The notes under the pieces are model-generated. The model had not been told where the DNA came from, searched no databases, and saw only the letters and a list, made by a program, of their open reading frames with translations. 6,972 bases of DNA from Chitinophagales bacterium (GTDB lineage: Bacteria; Bacteroidota; Bacteroidia; Chitinophagales; UBA2359), in the NCBI GenBank assembly GCA_020629335.1, contig JAHDDN010000226.1, forward strand, positions 1,689-8,660. Direction: 5' to 3'. A program made the position numbers and the translations under genes. This document shows, in pieces, positions 19-6,899 of the stretch. How positions within the stretch are numbered: the first letter of the stretch is position 1; each line of letters opens with the position of its first letter.

Positions 19-210
19 TTATCTAAGTCTCACAAATCGTGTGCGTCTAAAAAAAGCATTACGCCAAAACTTAGGCGCACTATCTGGTTCTGGATCACTC
101 ATGGAGTTATTGCGCATCATACGCCCCATCATAGCCCCAGAAACGAAGCTCAAAGCAAACCAGATAAATACGATTAGAATAATTAATTTAAAAGCTTGGT
201 CAAATTTCAT
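19..210 (-). CDS. Small single-TM protein, 63 aa, basic C-terminus ending FVRLR
   Basis: The ATG is at 210-208 and the TAA at 21-19. Residues 8-29 form one hydrophobic segment, followed by a Met/Arg/Asn-rich stretch, a short acidic Pro/Ser segment (about 37-46) and a very basic Arg/Phe-rich tail. The N-terminus (MKFDQAFK) closely resembles that of the upstream 52-residue protein (MKLDRAYK), so the two look like diverged paralogues. The last five residues, FVRLR, are identical to the end of the packaging ATPase at 4433. It sits 10 bases downstream of the previous gene, in the same minus-strand operon. I infer a minor virion membrane protein; no family is recognised. No signal-peptide cleavage site is obvious, so the hydrophobic segment is probably a retained anchor. 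Confidence 0.75.
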   Translation of the reverse strand: MKFDQAFKLIILIVFIWFALSFVSGAMMGRMMRNNSMSDPEPDSAPKFWRNAFFRRTRFVRLR

Positions 211-220
211 ATTATTGATT

Positions 221-379
221 TTATCGCACTACTGGATTGGCTGGAATCTGCATAGTCTCTTTCATTTTTTGGATTTCGTATCGTTTTTTCAAACGCATAA
301 TTAAGAAAAAACCATAATAAGCCCCAACAATGACAATGGCAGCAAGAACAGCTATTTTATAAGCTCTATCTAATTTCAT
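221..379 (-). CDS. Small single-TM protein, 52 aa, paralogue of the neighbouring 63-aa protein
   Basis: I chose the ATG at 379-377, which lies 4 bases after the stop of the upstream gene (TAG 386-384). The frame is open further upstream to 436, but that start would lie inside the upstream gene and would add a non-hydrophobic leader. The N-terminus MKLDRAYK is followed by a hydrophobic segment at about residues 8-28 and then a charged stretch rich in Lys, Arg and Glu. Residues 1-8 match the 63-aa protein downstream as MK-x-D-x-A-x-K, with conservative changes between. The protein ends PVVR, loosely like other C-termini in this cluster. It is probably a small phage membrane protein; the function is unknown. 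Confidence 0.7.
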   Translation of the reverse strand: MKLDRAYKIAVLAAIVIVGAYYGFFLIMRLKKRYEIQKMKETMQIPANPVVR

Positions 380-383
380 TTTT

Positions 384-1109
384 CTACTTTTTCTTAGGAC
401 AAGTCGGGCATGGTTTTTTTCCAGACTTTGCGGCACTTAATTTATTCAATCGACACTCAGCACAGCATACAGCACCGAAGTCTTCAGCTAAATTAGCAGC
501 GATAATTAAATGATTTTGTGTAGGTCTGGTTCCTTTCTCTAACTTCATTCGACTGTCTACCCGATAGCCTAAGAATTGGTTGTTTTTCGTATAGACTGAA
601 GTCTTCACTAACTCTGCTGTTTTCGCATGATGAACAGCGCCACCCAAAATAAAAGACTGAGAGCTTTGCTTACTTTTAAGTGAGTGAGCCACTACTAATT
701 TATGAGGTGTCTTTGCTTTAGGCTCTGCCTTTAGTTGCAAATTGTGACGATTAAAAGTTGCTTGTTTGATCTTGATAGCAGGTTTGCCTGCTAAACTTGA
801 CACTTGATAAAATTGCCCTCCTTTTAAGGTCACTGTATCAAAAGATTCTCCTTTCACAAAAATCTCCAAGGTGGCGCTGTTGACACTTTTTGAAGTGTTC
901 ACGTATAGCTCACCTTTAGCAAAGTTGATTTCAAAAGGCACATCCTCAAACAATGTTTTATTGATTGTTTTTTCATCACTAATCTTATTAGTAGTTTTGG
1001 CCTTTTCATGTATCGTCTTTCCTGACTTCCTCACTGTCAAATTCGCTACTTGAACTATTTGTGTTGTAGTTGTTGCTGTTGGAACTTTTCTTTTTTGAAT
1101 TGGTTTCAA
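384..1109 (-). CDS. Beta-rich structural-type protein with C-terminal zinc-ribbon-like motif, 241 aa
   Basis: The frame has no ATG near its beginning. The only plausible conventional start is TTG at 1109-1107, because an in-frame TAA lies at 1130-1128. The first ~50 residues are Lys/Thr-rich and low in complexity. Residues about 55-205 alternate short hydrophobic and polar stretches, suggesting beta structure. The C-terminus carries C216-A-E-C219 and C234-P-T-C237, with another Cys at 215: two CxxC pairs 14 residues apart, as in zinc ribbons. It has no TM segment of its own. It overlaps the upstream two-TM gene by 104 bases, and an A9 run lies just upstream of the TTG, so it may instead be made as a +1-shifted extension of that protein. 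A minor capsid, spike or virion-surface role is an inference; no family is recognised. Confidence 0.7.
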   Translation of the reverse strand: MKPIQKRKVPTATTTTQIVQVANLTVRKSGKTIHEKAKTTNKISDEKTINKTLFEDVPFEINFAKGELYVNTSKSVNSATLEIFVKGESFDTVTLKGGQFYQVSSLAGKPAIKIKQATFNRHNLQLKAEPKAKTPHKLVVAHSLKSKQSSQSFILGGAVHHAKTAELVKTSVYTKNNQFLGYRVDSRMKLEKGTRPTQNHLIIAANLAEDFGAVCCAECRLNKLSAAKSGKKPCPTCPKKK

Positions 1110-1335
1110 TGCTATTTTTTTTTGAATTTAAAAAGACTGTTAGATACTGAATAAGTGCGATTAGTAGTAGAGCAAACAAGCCGCCCAACACATTACCAAA
1201 GGGATTAGCCCCTTCTAGAAATCGGGCAATAAAATCCTGAATACTGAGGAAGAATTTGCCACCAAAAAGCGCACCTACTAAAACACCTATACTATTGATT
1301 CTATCCACTATGCTATTTAATTTTTTTAGCTGCAT
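1006..1335 (-). CDS. Two-TM membrane protein with polar Ser/Asn-rich tail, 109 aa
   Basis: The ATG at 1335-1333 is preferred over an in-frame TTG 18 bases upstream. The protein starts with a basic/polar helix, then has a weak hydrophobic segment at about residues 15-31 and a strong one at about 47-69. After residue 70 it becomes Lys/Ser/Asn-rich and ends in an acidic stretch. The start overlaps the preceding 48-aa gene by 23 bases, and the tail overlaps the next gene by 104 bases. The tail codons follow a run of nine A (plus-strand T at 1115-1123). A one-base loss or +1 shift there would join the TM part directly to the 241-aa frame. The tail is low in complexity and could be either a real linker or an out-of-frame reading of the neighbour. 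Probably a virion membrane protein. Confidence 0.65.
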   Translation of the reverse strand: MQLKKLNSIVDRINSIGVLVGALFGGKFFLSIQDFIARFLEGANPFGNVLGGLFALLLIALIQYLTVFLNSKKNSIETNSKKKSSNSNNYNTNSSSSEFDSEEVRKDDT

Positions 1336-1459
1336 ATACCGCAGCAAAAACAACCAGGAATAGCATTACACCTATTTTGATTATCGTTTCAGTTTCAATA
1401 CCAATTTGCGGATTTAAAATATCCGAAACGGTGTCTAAGGTGTCGTTAAATCCTGACAT
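1313..1459 (-). CDS. Small C-terminally anchored membrane protein, 48 aa
   Basis: The ATG is at 1459-1457 and the TAG at 1315-1313. The start overlaps the end of the M15 peptidase gene by 14 bases, and the stop overlaps the next gene by 23 bases. Residues 1-25 are polar and mildly acidic (MSGFNDTLDTV at the start). Residues about 27-44 form one hydrophobic helix rich in Val, Ala, Phe and Leu, and the protein ends AAKKIK. This acidic N-terminus, single TM and short basic C-terminus resembles small coat or membrane proteins of phages, including the general shape of mature filamentous-phage coat proteins, but no homology is claimed. Without this gene the stretch would be an unexplained gap in a tightly packed operon. 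A holin-like role next to the peptidase is another possibility. Confidence 0.65.
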   Translation of the reverse strand: MSGFNDTLDTVSDILNPQIGIETETIIKIGVMLFLVVFAAVYAAKKIK

Positions 1460-2204
1460 ATTTTTTTATGATTAAAGGCGAAAATAAAAGCAGCACAACA
1501 AGTAATATTTTGCCGTATAGCTCATATTTCGGATTACTTAAAAATCTGTTCGTTGCTAAAATATCATCTTCTCTCCCCTGCCCTAATGCTAATTTTGCAT
1601 TCATTAAAAATTCAAAAAAAGCATCTTGAGCTGTTTCACTTGCTTGTGTAATAATGCTCCCACTGCTTTGCACTTCGTTGGTTGAATAATTACCACTTTC
1701 AGTTATAACAGGGACTTTATTTCTCCATGATGGAGAGCGATTATCAATTACCTTAATCGGTCCCGCCGTTGCTATATGTATGAAATTGCCTCCTGCGCCT
1801 CCGTACATAATAAATTCACGTCCTCCTAATCGTACCAACTCATCGAAAATTGGCCCTCTGGTAGAAATATCATAAAAGAGTGCAATTAAGACGGCTTCTT
1901 CATTCTGTATCCAATTGTAATCACAAGCGTGACCACTTAAGTGGTGGCTTGTTTCACTTGATCCTGGCTGATTGGCATTGTATGCATAAGACCGATAAGT
2001 CGAAAAACGAGATTTACCATTTGTAAGCATTCCGCCCATAGGTTGCCCAAAGTGCGTCCTTAAATATTCGCCTATTTGTATCAAGCGATCATCTAAGGGA
2101 TGCGAAGCAGGAGCAGGCCGCTCATTGGTAAAAAATTCTTTCACCTTGAAGTGGGGTGAAAGTGATTCTTCCCATTGATCCTTATAAAGGGTTATTATTG
2201 CCAC
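1446..2204 (-). CDS. M15-type peptidoglycan peptidase with C-terminal membrane anchor, 252 aa
   Basis: This is a zinc D,D-/L,D-peptidase-like enzyme of the M15 family (the Peptidase_M15_3 type seen in phages and bacteria), expected to cleave peptide cross-links of peptidoglycan. The motif SxHxxGxAxD is visible at residues 86-95 (S86, H88, G91, A93, D95). H88 and D95 should bind zinc, and H143 in FIHIA is the likely third ligand, with D121/E122 near the catalytic position. The N-terminus (FKVKEFF) is typical of the family. Residues ~155-225 form a polar linker. Residues 233-247 are strongly hydrophobic, followed by KKYVRI. There is no signal peptide, so it is probably anchored by its C-terminus, in the virion membrane for entry or in the cell membrane for lysis. 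The start is GTG at 2204-2202, overlapping the upstream gene by 23 bases. Confidence 0.88.
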   Translation of the reverse strand: MAIITLYKDQWEESLSPHFKVKEFFTNERPAPASHPLDDRLIQIGEYLRTHFGQPMGGMLTNGKSRFSTYRSYAYNANQPGSSETSHHLSGHACDYNWIQNEEAVLIALFYDISTRGPIFDELVRLGGREFIMYGGAGGNFIHIATAGPIKVIDNRSPSWRNKVPVITESGNYSTNEVQSSGSIITQASETAQDAFFEFLMNAKLALGQGREDDILATNRFLSNPKYELYGKILLVVLLLFSPLIIKKYVRI

Positions 2205-2334
2205 CTTCCGCTAATAGTTTTGATTCATTGAGTTTCATAGTCAAGTAATTACCTGCTACAACACCCGCCGCAATGACGAACATAGCGACAATAAAAACCA
2301 TCCAATTAATACGATTATTTGTTACGAGATTCAT
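2182..2334 (-). CDS. Small single-TM protein, 50 aa
   Basis: The ATG is at 2334-2332 and the TAA at 2184-2182. The product starts with a polar MNLVTNNRIN, has a hydrophobic helix at about residues 11-31 rich in Val, Ala and Ile, and ends in a polar tail with a Glu-Gly-Gly-Asn stretch. It starts 13 bases after the previous gene and overlaps the GTG start of the M15 peptidase by 23 bases, so the two are probably translationally coupled. Position next to the peptidase makes a holin- or lysis-associated role possible. A virion membrane protein is equally compatible. No family is recognised. Confidence 0.65.
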   Translation of the reverse strand: MNLVTNNRINWMVFIVAMFVIAAGVVAGNYLTMKLNESKLLAEGGNNNPL

Positions 2335-2347
2335 GTTTGTTTTTTCT

Positions 2348-2797
2348 TTAGAAGACTATACTTTCAATTTTCTGTAATGCTTGATTGCGTATATCACAAT
2401 AGACAAGCGGTCCAATATCCACAGGTGAACAGAATTCACCACTAATTGTCTTATGTAAATTTTCCCATTGAAATGGCCATTGCCCTTCACCTAAATATAA
2501 TTCACTCCACCGATTATATACGGCTGCCACCTGATCCAATGTTAAAGCATTAAACTTCGATAATTCCTCGTTGAGAGAGTACCCAAATCCAAAGCCTGAG
2601 ATTGAATTGTAAATGCCGTTTACGATCTCATCAGGAGACCACATCACTGGAATACCTGAACCACTGTTAGGTAAATCTACATACGGTGGTTTACCTCCTT
2701 TTTTGTCTCTTTTCAAAACGATAATTAATACCGTAATGACGACTAAAAAAGCTAGTGTAATTAGTGCATTTTCTTTATTGAGATACTTAGCCTGCAC
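2348..2797 (-). CDS. N-terminally anchored protein with globular domain, 149 aa
   Basis: The start is GTG at 2797-2795, overlapping the end of the upstream gene by 11 bases; there is no usable ATG early in the frame. Residues 10-28 form a strong TM helix followed by a basic stop-transfer stretch (KRDKKGGK). A Gly/Pro/Ser linker then leads to a helical domain at about residues 55-149 rich in Tyr and Trp, with Cys123 and Cys134 that could pair if exported. The pattern of leucines, VYNRW and a following LHKTISGEF is faintly like an annexin-type helical repeat, but this is only an impression. The arrangement of inside tail, TM helix and external or capsid-facing domain suits a virion membrane protein that links membrane to capsid or vertex. 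Confidence 0.78.
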   Translation of the reverse strand: MQAKYLNKENALITLAFLVVITVLIIVLKRDKKGGKPPYVDLPNSGSGIPVMWSPDEIVNGIYNSISGFGFGYSLNEELSKFNALTLDQVAAVYNRWSELYLGEGQWPFQWENLHKTISGEFCSPVDIGPLVYCDIRNQALQKIESIVF

Positions 2798-3029
2798 GTC
2801 TCATTGATAATGGAGGAACATAACCACGACGAGCGCCGCCAAAGAATCCAGCAGGAGGGTTATTACTTGAACCATCACCAGTAATATCTGGTAAGTTGCT
2901 TAAAATATTCCCACCACCGTTGTTTTTACGCATATTCATATACCATACAGCTGCTACAGCCAATAGAATAAGAATTACAGGCGTTGAAGTCAATATATTT
3001 ATAAGTCCGTTTGATTTTCTTGCTGCCAC
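2787..3029 (-). CDS. Small membrane protein with Gly/Pro-rich tail, 80 aa
   Basis: The start is GTG at 3029-3027, 7 bases after the stop of the upstream gene. A short basic N-terminus (MAARKSNG) leads to a hydrophobic segment at about residues 14-31. After that comes a flexible tail rich in Gly, Asn and Pro, ending in an Arg-containing PPLSMRRAG. The stop overlaps the next gene by 11 bases. Small proteins with one TM and a Gly-rich tail are common as minor membrane components of lipid-containing phages, and I infer that role. No family is recognised. Confidence 0.72.
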   Translation of the reverse strand: MAARKSNGLINILTSTPVILILLAVAAVWYMNMRKNNGGGNILSNLPDITGDGSSNNPPAGFFGGARRGYVPPLSMRRAG

Positions 3030-3036
3030 GTTATTA

Positions 3037-3540
3037 TTATTTTTTTGATTGAAAATAGAAGAATACTAATGCTGCAAACATTAGCAACATCATCAAATAA
3101 ATTGGAGTATTATTTTGAGCAGGAATGATAATATCTGGTTGTTGAGCTGGACCACTATTCGTACCTAAAATACTGGATAAAATAGTTCCTACCCCATTCC
3201 CAAAGTTAACCCACCACGTCCCGTCACCAGCAACGCCTTGATAATTTCCGCTACCCAAACTAAGCCCCTCTTTAACCCATATTTGGTTAACTCTACCCGT
3301 TGCACTTGGATTATAAGGAACATTAGAAAGAGCCGCTAAAACCACATTAGACTGTCCATTTTGCAAGTAAGAAACCAACAAATTGTATAAGTCTGCTGTA
3401 TGCTTTGGGGCTGTCTCTGGTGTTAAATAACCCGCTCCGATTAGATTTTGCGAAATGGCTTCGCCATTGTTATTAACAGCGAAGTCCAACAAAAAATAAG
3501 GATTAGAGCGTAGTGAATTAATAAACTCCTGCTTAGTCAA
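3037..3540 (-). CDS. C-terminally anchored structural-type protein, 167 aa
   Basis: The frame has no ATG before residue 150, so the start is TTG at 3540-3538, 10 bases after the stop of the capsid candidate. Residues 1-75 look helical (TKQEFINSL, then leucine-rich helices). Residues ~80-140 are rich in Gly, Asn, Thr and Pro, with a tryptophan pair at W109-W110. Residues about 146-163 form a TM helix (Met/Leu/Phe-rich), and the protein ends FQSKK. It directly follows the capsid candidate and starts a run of membrane proteins. A membrane-anchored protein bridging capsid and internal membrane, or a vertex component, is the likely class. No homologue is recognised. Confidence 0.75.
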   Translation of the reverse strand: MTKQEFINSLRSNPYFLLDFAVNNNGEAISQNLIGAGYLTPETAPKHTADLYNLLVSYLQNGQSNVVLAALSNVPYNPSATGRVNQIWVKEGLSLGSGNYQGVAGDGTWWVNFGNGVGTILSSILGTNSGPAQQPDIIIPAQNNTPIYLMMLLMFAALVFFYFQSKK

Positions 3541-3550
3541 AACCTATTTT

Positions 3551-4213
3551 TTAGTAATAGTTATAGATACCGTCGATATCGAATGTATAAACCAAAACTT
3601 GGTCTTTAAGAACATCAATTTCGATGGCTGTTAGATCATTCACATAAATTGGATCTTCCAATGTGAGTTGGTGTCTTGTTGTATCTAAATAATCGTTTGG
3701 TTCTGCATCAGCCATATTAAAAGGCGATTCCTGAGCAGGTGTAGTATCGTGATTATACTCAAACAAGGTCATTGATTGATCAAATTGCTCTCTTTTTTGC
3801 GCCTTAATTCTGAGTCTCCAAAACTTATAAGTAAAACGATTAAAAGTACTCATGACCAAAGCTAAACGAGCTGTATCGCCTTTAAAATTATTCAAAGAAA
3901 CTACGACGCCATTAGGCAAAGTTGCAGGAAGCCCTTTAATAGTTTTATGAAAATTCAAATGATCGAAAAGAACAATTCTTGAAACCTCATTTTCTGCATT
4001 CGTAGTGTTGATGCAAAAAGACAAAGAGTTTTTAACTTTTTGATCAATAGGAATAATAAGTGAGGAATTACGATTATTTTCAGGGCTTCTAACATGATGT
4101 AGATTTTGCCCTAAATAGCCACCACAATTACCCATATTTTGCTGGAATCTGGATTGCTCCAAAATTCGTCCACCTGCACTGGCAGGATTATCAATTAAAC
4201 CTTTATTTGGCAT
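3551..4213 (-). CDS. Putative major capsid protein, 220 aa
   Basis: The ATG is at 4213-4211. This is the first gene after the candidate promoter and the largest soluble protein of the structural operon without a TM segment. After a Gly/Asn-rich N-terminal arm (about 1-50) it shows alternating hydrophobic strands: near residues 50-57, 62-70, 76-83, 102-110, 115-122, 128-138, then at 186-191, 196-202 and 206-212. This fits a mostly beta protein such as a jelly roll. Residues about 150-180 form an acidic loop-like region, and the end is rich in Tyr (IYNYY). At 220 residues it is shorter than known double-jelly-roll capsid proteins (PM2 P2 269, FLiP about 300 residues), so it could be a compact double or a single jelly roll. 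The capsid assignment rests on position, size and composition, not a recognised motif. Confidence 0.55.
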   Translation of the reverse strand: MPNKGLIDNPASAGGRILEQSRFQQNMGNCGGYLGQNLHHVRSPENNRNSSLIIPIDQKVKNSLSFCINTTNAENEVSRIVLFDHLNFHKTIKGLPATLPNGVVVSLNNFKGDTARLALVMSTFNRFTYKFWRLRIKAQKREQFDQSMTLFEYNHDTTPAQESPFNMADAEPNDYLDTTRHQLTLEDPIYVNDLTAIEIDVLKDQVLVYTFDIDGIYNYY

Positions 4214-4225
4214 AACATTTATGTT
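4211..4225. repeat. Short inverted repeat touching the capsid-gene start
   Basis: The bases aacat-tt-atgtt (4214-4225) form a perfect 5-bp inverted repeat directly upstream of the ATG at 4213-4211. In the minus-strand transcript it would form a weak, AT-rich hairpin adjoining the start codon. It may be a chance result of AT-rich leader sequence; a translational or repressor role is only possible. Confidence 0.2.
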
Positions 4226-4259
4226 TAAAAAAAAATATTTCCGATTTACGATTTAGTCA

Positions 4260-4290
4260 CAAAGATGAATCAAGAAGGAGGGAATATCAA
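4260..4290 (-). promoter_or_regulatory. Candidate promoter of the structural operon
   Basis: Reading the minus strand, TTG (4290-4288) is followed after 20 bases by CATCTTTG (4267-4260). The Bacteroidota housekeeping promoter is TTTG, 19-21 bases, TAnnTTTG. The -7 element here matches 7 of 8 positions and the spacing fits; the -33 element is partial. Transcription would begin roughly 35-45 bases before the capsid-candidate ATG, leaving an A/T-rich leader without a Shine-Dalgarno sequence, as is usual in that phylum. It sits downstream of the terminator of the previous unit, where a new promoter is needed. Confidence 0.4.
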
Positions 4291-4373
4291 TAGTTTTCAG
4301 AAAATTGAAACGGTCATTTTTTTTAAGAATGTTATTATTCTTTTAAAGCGATTTCAAAAATCAATAACGACCA

Positions 4374-4411
4374 GAAAAAACAAAAGGCCGTTCAAAAACA
4401 TGAACGACCTT
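4374..4411 (-). terminator. Intrinsic terminator after the ATPase gene
   Basis: Arms 4384-4394 (aaggccgttca) and 4401-4411 (tgaacgacctt) pair over 11 bp with a single G-U type mismatch and a 6-base loop. Read on the minus strand the stem is followed by TTGTTTTTT (4383-4375). It begins 21 bases after the ATPase stop codon and has the classic stem plus T-tract form. It separates the regulatory/ATPase unit from the structural unit. Confidence 0.88.
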
Positions 4412-4432
4412 AAGTATAAGGAGTATAAATAG

Positions 4433-5071
4433 CTATCTTAGCCGAACGAATTTATAATAATATGGGCTAGCATTTTTATTGACTTTATCAATAGCTGCTT
4501 GGACTTTATCAAAATTGACCATTTTACTTTTTTGCGTACTCGTCAATGCACCAGTCTTAGCCGTTTTAAAAACAGCTAAGTGTGTAAAAACATCAACCAA
4601 AGCAGGGGGCACTGTTCTAAATCCATGTACCACAAAAAATAAATCTAAGTCTTTATGTCTTCGATTATTGAGTAATTTTTTTTGATACTTCAAAAGCTTG
4701 GATTCCCATGTACTTGTAGCATCATCAAAAACGATTAAGGCATCATGTATAAAAGCCCATATAAAATACCAAGTCTTAGTTTCAAACCTAGTTATATTGA
4801 TACGATAAATTCCATTTTCAAGGCTATCAATAAGGGCTTTATCTGACACATTGATTTCTTTAAAGTTTCGGGTCTTCTCATCCATTGAAAAAGAGTCCAC
4901 GATAAAGACTTTTCTTTTCTTCGCTTGTTTTTCAAGCAGTTTTAATAGCTGTGTTGTTTTACCCGTTCCATTTGTGCCAACGATGAGCGTAAAAGTAGCA
5001 GGGCGATAATTTACTTTAGTTTTTTTAGGCCGCTTCGTCTTGCTCTTTCTCCCTCTCTTTTGCTTCACCAT
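4433..5071 (-). CDS. Genome-packaging P-loop ATPase (A32/FtsK-HerA-like), 212 aa
   Basis: A strongly basic N-terminus (Lys/Arg-rich, residues 3-19) precedes a Walker A motif GTNGTGKT at residues 32-39 (K38, T39). A Walker B strand ALIVFDD lies at 111-117 (D116, D117), followed by an NRRHKDLDLFFVVHG segment at 135-149 and VPP at 154-156. This is the usual order in the small packaging ATPases of membrane-containing phages and in related Zot/FtsK-HerA proteins. The short length and lack of nuclease or TM domains favour a packaging ATPase over a terminase or a filamentous-phage Zot. The role would be to pump DNA into a preformed capsid. The ATG at 5071 overlaps the upstream gene by 47 bases, and no later Met is available before Walker A. 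The C-terminus FVRLR is shared with the 63-aa protein at 19-210. Confidence 0.85.
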   Translation of the reverse strand: MVKQKRGRKSKTKRPKKTKVNYRPATFTLIVGTNGTGKTTQLLKLLEKQAKKRKVFIVDSFSMDEKTRNFKEINVSDKALIDSLENGIYRINITRFETKTWYFIWAFIHDALIVFDDATSTWESKLLKYQKKLLNNRRHKDLDLFFVVHGFRTVPPALVDVFTHLAVFKTAKTGALTSTQKSKMVNFDKVQAAIDKVNKNASPYYYKFVRLR

Positions 5072-5597
5072 TTCCTGAACGTTTTTTTGGTTTCATAAAA
5101 ATAGTTTTGGTAGTATCATTAATACCTTTTTTCGATCCATCTGCGGTCACTACTAATAAGCGCAACCAAGGTGACATATGAGTATCATCAATACCATATT
5201 CTTGTAAAATCTCAGCGAAAATCTCAGCACATTGAGAAATATGTGATTTTGGTAGAGAATAGCTTCCTGGTGTGATTCGATTAATAAGAGAAAACAGAAA
5301 ATCAACAATAATAGACCAGAAAAGTGCCATACCATAGCTTAGCAATTTCTTAGCTGCTCCGCTATTGCTGCCTGAACTTGCAGTATGGCTTTGATCCGCT
5401 TCAAAATGGGTTGCATCTTCATCGTCGAAAAGATCATCTTCAGCTTGCGGCTCTGTCATATCTATGAACTCGGCTTCCAAGTCTTCGACGTCTATTTCCT
5501 CATGTGGCTCAACAGGGGTTAATAGATAATCGCTAAAGCTATCAAAGTCTAATTCGACGTTTTCGTTATCCCTTCTTTTATTTACTGCCATCTTCAT
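5025..5597 (-). CDS. Acidic protein with central hydrophobic segment, 190 aa, unknown
   Basis: The ATG is at 5597-5595, with a second ATG two codons later. Residues ~13-70 are strongly acidic (Asp/Glu-rich), followed by a Ser/Gly linker (71-80). A hydrophobic helix pair lies at about 85-107, and a more ordered C-terminal region at 110-170 includes helices and a short strand (LRLLVVTADG). The tail is rich in Lys, Glu and Arg. The start overlaps the 111-aa gene by 20 bases, and the end overlaps the ATPase by 47 bases, which suggests coupled expression with the ATPase. The acidic N-terminus could mimic DNA or bind a basic partner such as the ATPase N-terminus. It could equally be a scaffold or membrane adaptor for packaging. 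No family is recognised. Confidence 0.72.
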   Translation of the reverse strand: MKMAVNKRRDNENVELDFDSFSDYLLTPVEPHEEIDVEDLEAEFIDMTEPQAEDDLFDDEDATHFEADQSHTASSGSNSGAAKKLLSYGMALFWSIIVDFLFSLINRITPGSYSLPKSHISQCAEIFAEILQEYGIDDTHMSPWLRLLVVTADGSKKGINDTTKTIFMKPKKRSGNGEAKEREKEQDEAA

Positions 5598-5913
5598 TAA
5601 TTAGTTTGAGTAAATCGGTTAAGGTATACTCATATTTACCTCCTATTTTCTTGTAAGCATTGATAACTTCGTATTCTTCTTGTTTTCCATCTTCCTCAAT
5701 TACAATTTCTTTAAGGGTTACAAACTCAACGGTAAGTCCCTTATCCGTCTTAGAAATGAGATATGCCGATTTAGTTTCTTTTTTTTCGGGATTAGGCTTA
5801 AATGAGTTCAAAAGAAAGCTCAGAGCTTCTTCGACAATTCCAAAAATTTTTTCCTTAGAATATCCTAAAGATTCAAGCGCACTTAAGACCACACCTTCGA
5901 CCATTTTATTCAT
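5578..5913 (-). CDS. Unknown small protein, 111 aa
   Basis: The ATG at 5913-5911 overlaps the TGA of the winged-helix gene in the form ATGA, so translation is coupled; a second ATG lies three codons later. Residues 3-38 form an amphipathic helical region (VVLSALESLG, then a leucine/phenylalanine-rich helix). Residues ~48-92 look like three beta strands (YLISKTDKGLTVEFVTLKE, then IVIEE and YEVINAYKK). A short helix (TLTDLLKLI) follows and the tail is charged. There is no TM segment. Its place between a DNA-binding regulator and an ATPase operon partner suggests an early or regulatory role, but nothing in the sequence fixes one. Confidence 0.72.
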   Translation of the reverse strand: MNKMVEGVVLSALESLGYSKEKIFGIVEEALSFLLNSFKPNPEKKETKSAYLISKTDKGLTVEFVTLKEIVIEEDGKQEEYEVINAYKKIGGKYEYTLTDLLKLINEDGSK

Positions 5914-6167
5914 ATCAATTCGTATTTGTATTCAATTAGATTTCGGTGCCGTTTAGGATGCGCCGTTTTCTTAAGTTTTCCTAATTTTTCAAGTTTATTC
6001 AACTTATTCCTAACACGCTGTTGTAAAGCACCTGTAGAGGTTTTATAGACATCTGGTGGAGCTATTTTATCACATAGATCATTAACCCCCAAACCTTTGT
6101 TTTTCTCTAAGCAATCAAGCAAAAGAAATACGAGAGATAGTCCATAAAATTTTTCTAAGTCATTCAC
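5910..6167 (-). CDS. Winged-helix DNA-binding protein, 85 aa
   Basis: The start is GTG at 6167-6165; a TGA lies in frame four codons upstream, and no ATG is available. The fold can be read from the pattern: helix 1 at about residues 8-22 (LSLVFLLLDCL), helix 2 at 27-36 (GVNDLCDKI) and a long basic recognition helix at 46-63 (ALQQRVRNKLNKLEKL). A basic wing follows at 64-84 (KLKKTAHPKRHRNLIEY). It is the first gene of the minus-strand regulatory/ATPase unit and lies beside a palindrome in the divergent gap, so it probably autoregulates and controls the plus-strand gene. A phage repressor or transcription switch is inferred; a host-type regulator or a small replication protein are alternatives. 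Confidence 0.72.
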   Translation of the reverse strand: MNDLEKFYGLSLVFLLLDCLEKNKGLGVNDLCDKIAPPDVYKTSTGALQQRVRNKLNKLEKLGKLKKTAHPKRHRNLIEYKYELI

Positions 6168-6177
6168 AAGTAGGAAT

Positions 6178-6185
6178 CAGTTTTG
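6178..6185 (+). promoter_or_regulatory. Weak candidate -7 promoter element for the plus-strand gene
   Basis: The bases CAGTTTTG match the Bacteroidota -7 element TAnnTTTG at 7 of 8 positions. No clear TTTG is present about 20 bases upstream. If used, transcription would start close to the palindrome at 6190-6204 and leave a very short leader before the ATG at 6207. Confidence 0.25.
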
Positions 6186-6189
6186 CCAT

Positions 6190-6204
6190 TTATACTATGT
6201 ATAA
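6190..6204. promoter_or_regulatory. Perfect palindrome, candidate operator in the divergent gap
   Basis: The bases ttatac-tat-gtataa form a perfect inverted repeat of 6-bp arms around a 3-base centre. It lies in the ~40-base gap between the GTG of the winged-helix gene (6167) and the ATG of the plus-strand gene (6207). Its size and position suit a dimeric winged-helix repressor site that would cover both divergent promoters. It is AT-rich, so a chance match cannot be excluded. No second copy was seen in the window. Confidence 0.5.
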
Positions 6205-6206
6205 GA

Positions 6207-6899
6207 ATGCCAAACGAAAAAACTATAATGAAAAACTTAAGATCAATTTACCCTCAATCAGATATTTTAATTCAAAAAAAACCTAAGAAAAAGACGGCTG
6301 GATTTCGCAAATCAGAAAGAGTGGAAATAGAGCTAATTGGAACATTAATAAAGAAAAACTTCTTTACCACTTCCGAGATTGAAAAGCACTTTTTATTAAT
6401 CGCTCACATACAAAAAGAGTGTACCATCTTAGAAATTCTTAAGGAAATAGAGAATGCCAAAATTCAGCAATACATTAAAGCTATAAACGCCCCTGTTCAT
6501 TTGAATTTTGACATCAAAAGCTTAGGAAAATTTAAGTTAATGCAGATTATGCCAAGTGGCATGAAAGAAGTCAATATCATATCAATTAAAGACCAAGTAA
6601 AAAAGAGAAAAGACCAGGGCAAAACACGATACTTAAATTTAGCTATAGAATTCCTAAATGAAAATGAAGAAATCAAGTTAGCCACGATTAAAGGACAATT
6701 AAGAGATAGAGAAAAAACAGACAAAGAAGTCGCTCTTGAAATTTTATCGAAGGACTTAAAAATTTATAAAACCAAGCAAGGAAAGGGAAAGTATTTTTTC
6801 AACCAACCAAGCTTTGGAAAATTCCACATAAACATACAAGGAGTGTATAAGAAAGTCTACAAACGAATGATTGATTTTTATGACGAACAAGAAGAATAA
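6207..6899 (+). CDS. Lys-rich protein with two similar, possibly winged-helix units, 230 aa
   Basis: I chose the ATG at 6207-6209. A TTG start at 6183 is possible but would place the operator palindrome inside the coding sequence. The protein is very Lys/Glu-rich, with a basic N-terminus (KKPKKK near residue 25). Residues 42-78 and 144-180 align without gaps; both end in LEIL, and both are followed 25-30 residues later by S-L/F-GKF (105-109 and 202-206). This suggests an internal duplication. The second unit has the look of a winged helix: helices, then a basic hairpin near 186-198. It is transcribed away from the regulator and overlaps the next gene as TAATG. A DNA-binding role is likely; a replication initiator with two winged-helix domains is one option, a regulator another. 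No family is recognised. Confidence 0.7.
   Translation: MPNEKTIMKNLRSIYPQSDILIQKKPKKKTAGFRKSERVEIELIGTLIKKNFFTTSEIEKHFLLIAHIQKECTILEILKEIENAKIQQYIKAINAPVHLNFDIKSLGKFKLMQIMPSGMKEVNIISIKDQVKKRKDQGKTRYLNLAIEFLNENEEIKLATIKGQLRDREKTDKEVALEILSKDLKIYKTKQGKGKYFFNQPSFGKFHINIQGVYKKVYKRMIDFYDEQEE

Follow-up and report, generated by a model that had tools for sequence, protein, structure and literature searches.

Gene content of the module

The 6972-base stretch of DNA analyzed here (below, the window) carries a compact block of phage-like genes built around a packaging ATPase and a major capsid protein candidate. Positions 19-5597 of the minus strand hold 13 open, tightly packed open reading frames (ORFs), mostly with short overlaps. 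The ATPase of the FtsK/HerA/A32 type (212 amino acids, 4433..5071, Walker A motif GTNGTGKT; recognized in Pfam, in PHROGs and by hhalign), the capsid candidate (220 amino acids, 3551..4213, assigned to the single-jelly-roll type from its family and structure models) and an M15-type peptidase (252 amino acids, 1446..2204), a candidate virion-associated lytic enzyme, are all encoded on this strand, where the first-pass annotation had located them, and its assignment of the locus to tailless-phage morphogenesis is supported. The module runs beyond the right edge given there (5071): an acidic 190-residue protein with a weak transmembrane (TM) segment (5025..5597, minus strand), whose gene overlaps and immediately precedes that of the ATPase, belongs to it and has orthologues in three related contigs (L001-L003, see below). 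Between the ATPase and capsid genes there is an intrinsic-terminator-like hairpin (11 pairs and a T tail, minus strand, 4411-4384), listed first among 10 such hairpins found (4.5 expected from shuffles), so that packaging genes and virion genes are probably transcribed separately.

A Kyte-Doolittle scan identified exactly one TM segment in each of nine ORFs between positions 19 and 3540, all of them downstream of the capsid candidate; the initial count of at least eight small membrane proteins therefore holds, while none has the two segments that had been ascribed to some of them. These ORFs, all on the minus strand, encode a 167-residue protein with a C-terminal TM segment (3037..3540), in the position of a 150-164-residue C-terminal-TM protein located 3' of the capsid gene in L001-L003, the M15-type peptidase, a 48-residue protein (1313..1459) orthologous to the 52/58-residue protein of L001/L003, and six proteins defined by their ORFs and the scan, comprising 80 (2787..3029), 149 (2348..2797, N-terminal TM), 50 (2182..2334), 115 (1006..1353, low-complexity tail), 71 (221..436) and 63 (19..210) amino acids. 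Judging by sequence, the nine proteins hint at a lipid vesicle under the capsid, which is suggestive only. No TM segment was found in the capsid candidate, the ATPase and a 241-residue protein (384..1109, minus strand); the middle of the latter looks beta-rich, it has no convincing family in Pfam, PHROGs or NCBIfam, and a spike or penton would be our guess.

The earlier description of the peptidase as a membrane-anchored M15 enzyme is borne out by its TM anchor in residues 228-246 and its match to the endolysin family phrog_894 (1.2e-11), the score with PF08291 being below the cut-off (18.5 vs 23.2 bits). In a tblastn search it matched 25 phage records, none of them over more than 80% of its length. 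Neither Rfam nor tRNA searches of the window gave a match, its DNA matched nothing among phages or plasmids, and no replication gene was recognized within the 6972 bases by Pfam, PHROGs and NCBIfam.

Packaging ATPase, capsid candidate and their relatives

The best PHROG family for the window ATPase is phrog_2666 (1.6e-11), which is also the top match for the ATPases of PRD1, PM2 and P23-77 and supports the predicted small packaging ATPase. This family matches 14 of 14 control genomes and is weak evidence by itself, hence we relied on comparisons with controls. In Pfam, both PF04665 (Pox_A32, 29.3 bits) and Zot (23.3 bits) exceed their cut-offs, while among PHROGs phrog_2666 outranks both the inovirus family phrog_1675 and the Zot family phrog_197 (0.024). 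Taken alone, the window ATPase matches IN93 (7.9e-6), PRD1 (9.4e-6) and P23-77 at a tie, compared with 0.0026 for Pf1 and 0.049 for M13 gpI; the clustering with filamentous-phage Zot, named in the first-pass annotation as an outcome that would contradict it, was not seen.

The same protein led to relatives, contrary to the initial impression that there were none. Used as a query, it revealed P0003 (28% identity; a Sphingobacteriales metagenome-assembled genome (MAG), contig of 470,851 bases), and with P0003 added a pattern-limited scan of 2.9 million IMG/VR contigs gave three, 3300028178_000030 (L001), 3300044477_000288 (L002) and 3300020048_000674 (L003). As the IMG/VR scans rest on short peptide patterns, and scoring in the protein search was confined to the 7998 candidates with the most words in common, all counts of relatives are lower bounds. 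Compared by hhalign with the family of L001-L003 and P0003, the window ATPase gives E 3.7e-20, and the family in turn matches P23-77 (1.1e-11) and IN93 (4.1e-11), the E. coli P-loop controls reaching 5.9e-6 at best, and none extending over more than 49 columns; the SH1 ATPase of helvetiaviruses was not matched in this comparison. The protein is thus of the P23-77-kind FtsK/HerA type found in Helvetiavirae (Singelaviria). A membrane-anchored Zot/pI-type assembly ATPase is an Inoviridae-like feature, and the window ATPase has neither a TM segment nor a Zot or inovirus family as its best match.

The window ATPase has no match in INPHARED, nor in IMG/VR when used alone; the L001 ATPase and capsid have none in phages, and the L001 ATPase none in plasmids. 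Of two scans of GTDB contigs, one gave no match, and the sole match listed in the other (L004, Neglectibacter, 72 residues) was taken as a generic P-loop. The P0003 contig may carry a chromosomal provirus.

The capsid candidate, on the other hand, finds only itself or nothing in INPHARED, IMG/VR, Pfam, PHROGs, NCBIfam, PDB and 5.8 billion proteins. Computation places it in a family whose model is a single jelly roll. For family members of 178-190 amino acids the confident model is one sandwich (P0005, 189 amino acids, predicted local distance difference test score 88), which aligns with about one roll of the PRD1 and STIV coats; the model of the window protein is likewise one sandwich, with low confidence. 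The predicted fold is thus a viral jelly roll and not an unrelated one, in agreement with the soluble capsid candidate proposed at first. Among the structural matches listed for the family model, PRD1 and STIV coats are among the best, and helvetiaviral chains are absent. The capsid groups show no sequence similarity to VP16, VP17, PM2 P2, the FLiP and PRD1 coats, SH1 VP4/VP7 or, in a global comparison only, the STIV coat. Whether vertical in the capsid, like the VP16/VP17 type of Helvetiavirae, or not, the modelled fold is a single jelly roll, with a dissimilar sequence. Run against the 81 mechanical ORFs (at least 80 amino acids) of L001-L003, the capsid profile picks out a single member in each contig; the next hit has E 0.046. 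For an L001-like capsid, P0047, and for the window proteins P0001/P0002, the longest contig listed has exactly the same length, 8660 bases; their presence on one contig would mean two coat genes, but coincidence is more likely.

According to their ORFs, the modules around the ATPase in L001-L003 start with a protein of about 190 amino acids, the ATPase and a helix-turn-helix-like gene, followed by the capsid candidate (178-280 amino acids), the 150-164-residue C-terminal-TM protein and a run of small TM proteins. Further on there are a TM-anchored HExxH protein (in L001, Pfam M78 at 16.9 bits, below the cut-off) together with enzymes acting on peptidoglycan, namely SLT in L001 and a glucosaminidase in L003. 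Four genes are collinear with the window: those for the 190-residue protein, the ATPase and the capsid, whose order is shared by all three contigs (a search of metagenomes for the gene order had been suggested in the first-pass annotation), and that for the 48/52-residue TM protein, in L001 and L003. The differences are the length of the contigs (19-25 kb), the helix-turn-helix-like gene 3' of the ATPase, the HExxH peptidase-like TM protein replacing M15 and, in L001, integrase arm-binding and SAM-like domains together with a VapE-like helicase. In the protein searches, window proteins are present on at most three contigs.

Position among tailless viruses

To our knowledge, the layout of the window matches no known virus group exactly. 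The closest packaging ATPases are those of Matsushitaviridae (P23-77 and IN93; Helvetiavirae, Singelaviria), which also share the single-jelly-roll type of coat fold, an ATPase gene shortly 5' of the coat genes and lytic enzymes in the same region. Still, in P23-77 two coat genes (173 and 291 amino acids) lie side by side, compared with one detectable in the window, the coat sequences are not alignable, and the host is Thermus, while the names of two MAGs (P0003, P0028) point to Bacteroidota for the window. Portogloboviridae (SPV1), likened here by the description of the coat, have one single-jelly-roll coat gene, but are archaeal and described without a packaging ATPase (PMC8812541). PM2 (Corticoviridae) resembles the window in the order of ATPase, coat, small virion proteins, spike and TM-bearing endolysin, and Bamfordvirae in the PRD1/STIV matches listed above; both differ in having a double-jelly-roll coat (269 amino acids in PM2) and a less similar ATPase. 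FLiP (Finnlakeviridae) and PhiCjT23 have Flavobacterium hosts, an internal membrane and small genomes (9174 and 7642 nt), but are single-stranded DNA phages with a double jelly roll (PMC9719478). The ATPase alone cannot place the lineage, since ATPases of Sphaerolipoviridae cluster with those of Bamfordvirae (PMC8328091, where the coat fold and ATPase of classified groups are also tabulated). In the literature covered, to which subscription journals mostly do not belong, no described group was recognized that combines one single-jelly-roll coat with a packaging ATPase. Charybdis elements form a separate group (about 4.6 kb, archaea-linked), reported to lack virus hallmark proteins (PMC12324425).

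We think it likely that the window holds the morphogenesis module of a double-stranded DNA (dsDNA) phage or provirus of Bacteroidota that is small and tailless, is probably lined with a membrane, and belongs to the L001-L003 lineage as a diverged member. We group it with the tailless single-jelly-roll phages, as a variant of its own, and assign it neither to Singelaviria nor to Bamfordvirae. The scheme of PMC8812541 gives portogloboviruses one coat and no ATPase, and helvetiaviruses two coats and an ATPase. More tentatively, and with less than even confidence, we propose that tailless dsDNA viruses of this kind form a third lineage in Bacteroidota, so far undescribed, in which a P23-77-like ATPase is combined with just one coat protein, a single jelly roll. 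This lineage would stand between portogloboviruses and helvetiaviruses or, as the coat matches single rolls of the PRD1 and STIV coats, be a living one-roll cousin of the double-jelly-roll lineage. The coat fold family, ATPase type, order of four genes and TM content were computed, and from them we infer how assembly might proceed. The jelly-roll protein would be the one major coat protein, its homo-oligomeric capsomers tiling an icosahedron; a lipid vesicle beneath the shell would be studded with the nine single-TM proteins, and the ATPase would pump dsDNA in via one vertex. The TM-anchored peptidase in the virion membrane may cut peptidoglycan at entry or exit, its slot in the relatives being presumably taken by the TM-anchored HExxH peptidase-like protein, transglycosylases and glucosaminidase.

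The Zot score above the Pfam cut-off speaks against setting the window ATPase apart from Zot, and a second coat gene may have diverged beyond sequence detection. The latter would make the phage a true helvetiavirus with two single-jelly-roll coats, which seems unlikely, as the profile finds one capsid per contig, only four of the nine genes common to L001 and L003 (BLASTP) either lack a strong TM segment or are the capsid itself (ATPase, helix-turn-helix, capsid and an 88/91-residue protein), the coat groups resemble neither VP16 and VP17 nor SH1 VP4 and VP7, and the SH1 ATPase is unmatched. The filamentous, inovirus-like assembly module suggested by the former, with a Zot-type ATPase and small single-TM coat proteins, is very improbable given the ATPase without a TM segment, its best PHROG, the family's matches to P23-77 and IN93, which are six to seven orders better, and the presence of a jelly-roll family protein and peptidoglycan enzymes.

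We also regard as improbable the kind favored by the first-pass annotation, a double-jelly-roll phage like FLiP, PhiCjT23 or PM2, with a very short coat. The length of 220 amino acids, noted there as unusual for a double jelly roll, is by itself not too short, since the coat of the Flavobacterium phage PhiCjT23 is a double jelly roll of 239 amino acids (PMC9719478), and the TM-rich module with its order of ATPase, coat, membrane and lytic genes resembles PM2. However, the 178-190-residue family members are confidently modelled as one sandwich, the coats of FLiP, PM2 and PRD1 show neither profile nor global similarity (for STIV, global comparison only), and FLiP is described without a packaging ATPase (PMC5894146). 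Finally, a decayed provirus or a satellite borrowing the shell of a helper would fit the short stretch with no recognized replication gene and the rarity of its proteins, yet it is highly improbable for a module with 13 intact, tightly packed ORFs, its own coat candidate and an ATPase.

The layout may bear on the origin of the two great families of jelly-roll viruses. The International Committee on Taxonomy of Viruses has separated Helvetiavirae as the realm Singelaviria, arguing that the two coat types, single and double jelly roll, have independent origins (PMC12714852); in our judgement, the single-jelly-roll dsDNA viruses behind this argument are few. If true, a bacterial lineage with one coat and an ATPase would be a new branch for testing which came first, duplication of the coat or acquisition of the ATPase. 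The MAG names (Sphingobacteriales, Ferruginibacter) hint at proviruses; should these be real, the lineage could perhaps be cultivated.

Genes at the module edge and accessory genes of the relatives

Upstream of the 190-residue protein there is a soluble 111-residue ORF (5578..5913, minus strand), placed, by position and with no sequence support, like a gene for about 100 amino acids in L002 and L003. The adjacent 85-residue ORF (5910..6167, minus strand) has no PHROG or NCBIfam match and looks like a winged-helix regulator. A divergent, lysine-rich ORF of 238 amino acids (6183..6899, plus strand) at the module edge has no convincing match in Pfam, PHROGs or NCBIfam; our guess would be a replication or regulatory gene.

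In L003, positions 9234-12728 carry a diversity-generating retroelement, here in a tailless-phage relative. The variable repeat (11284-11409) ends the gene of a 723-residue protein, and is followed by the template repeat (11505-11630) and a reverse transcriptase; the repeats differ at 22 of 126 positions, 20 of these 22 mismatches being at template adenines. The element would diversify the 723-residue protein, a candidate receptor-binding protein. In L002, three consecutive genes (18475-20161) are related to the SLT transglycosylase of L001 (16261-16815), forming a tandem lytic-enzyme expansion, and a 691-residue protein with collagen-like Gly-X-Y stretches (12651-14726), encoded near the capsid gene, is a fibre or spike candidate.
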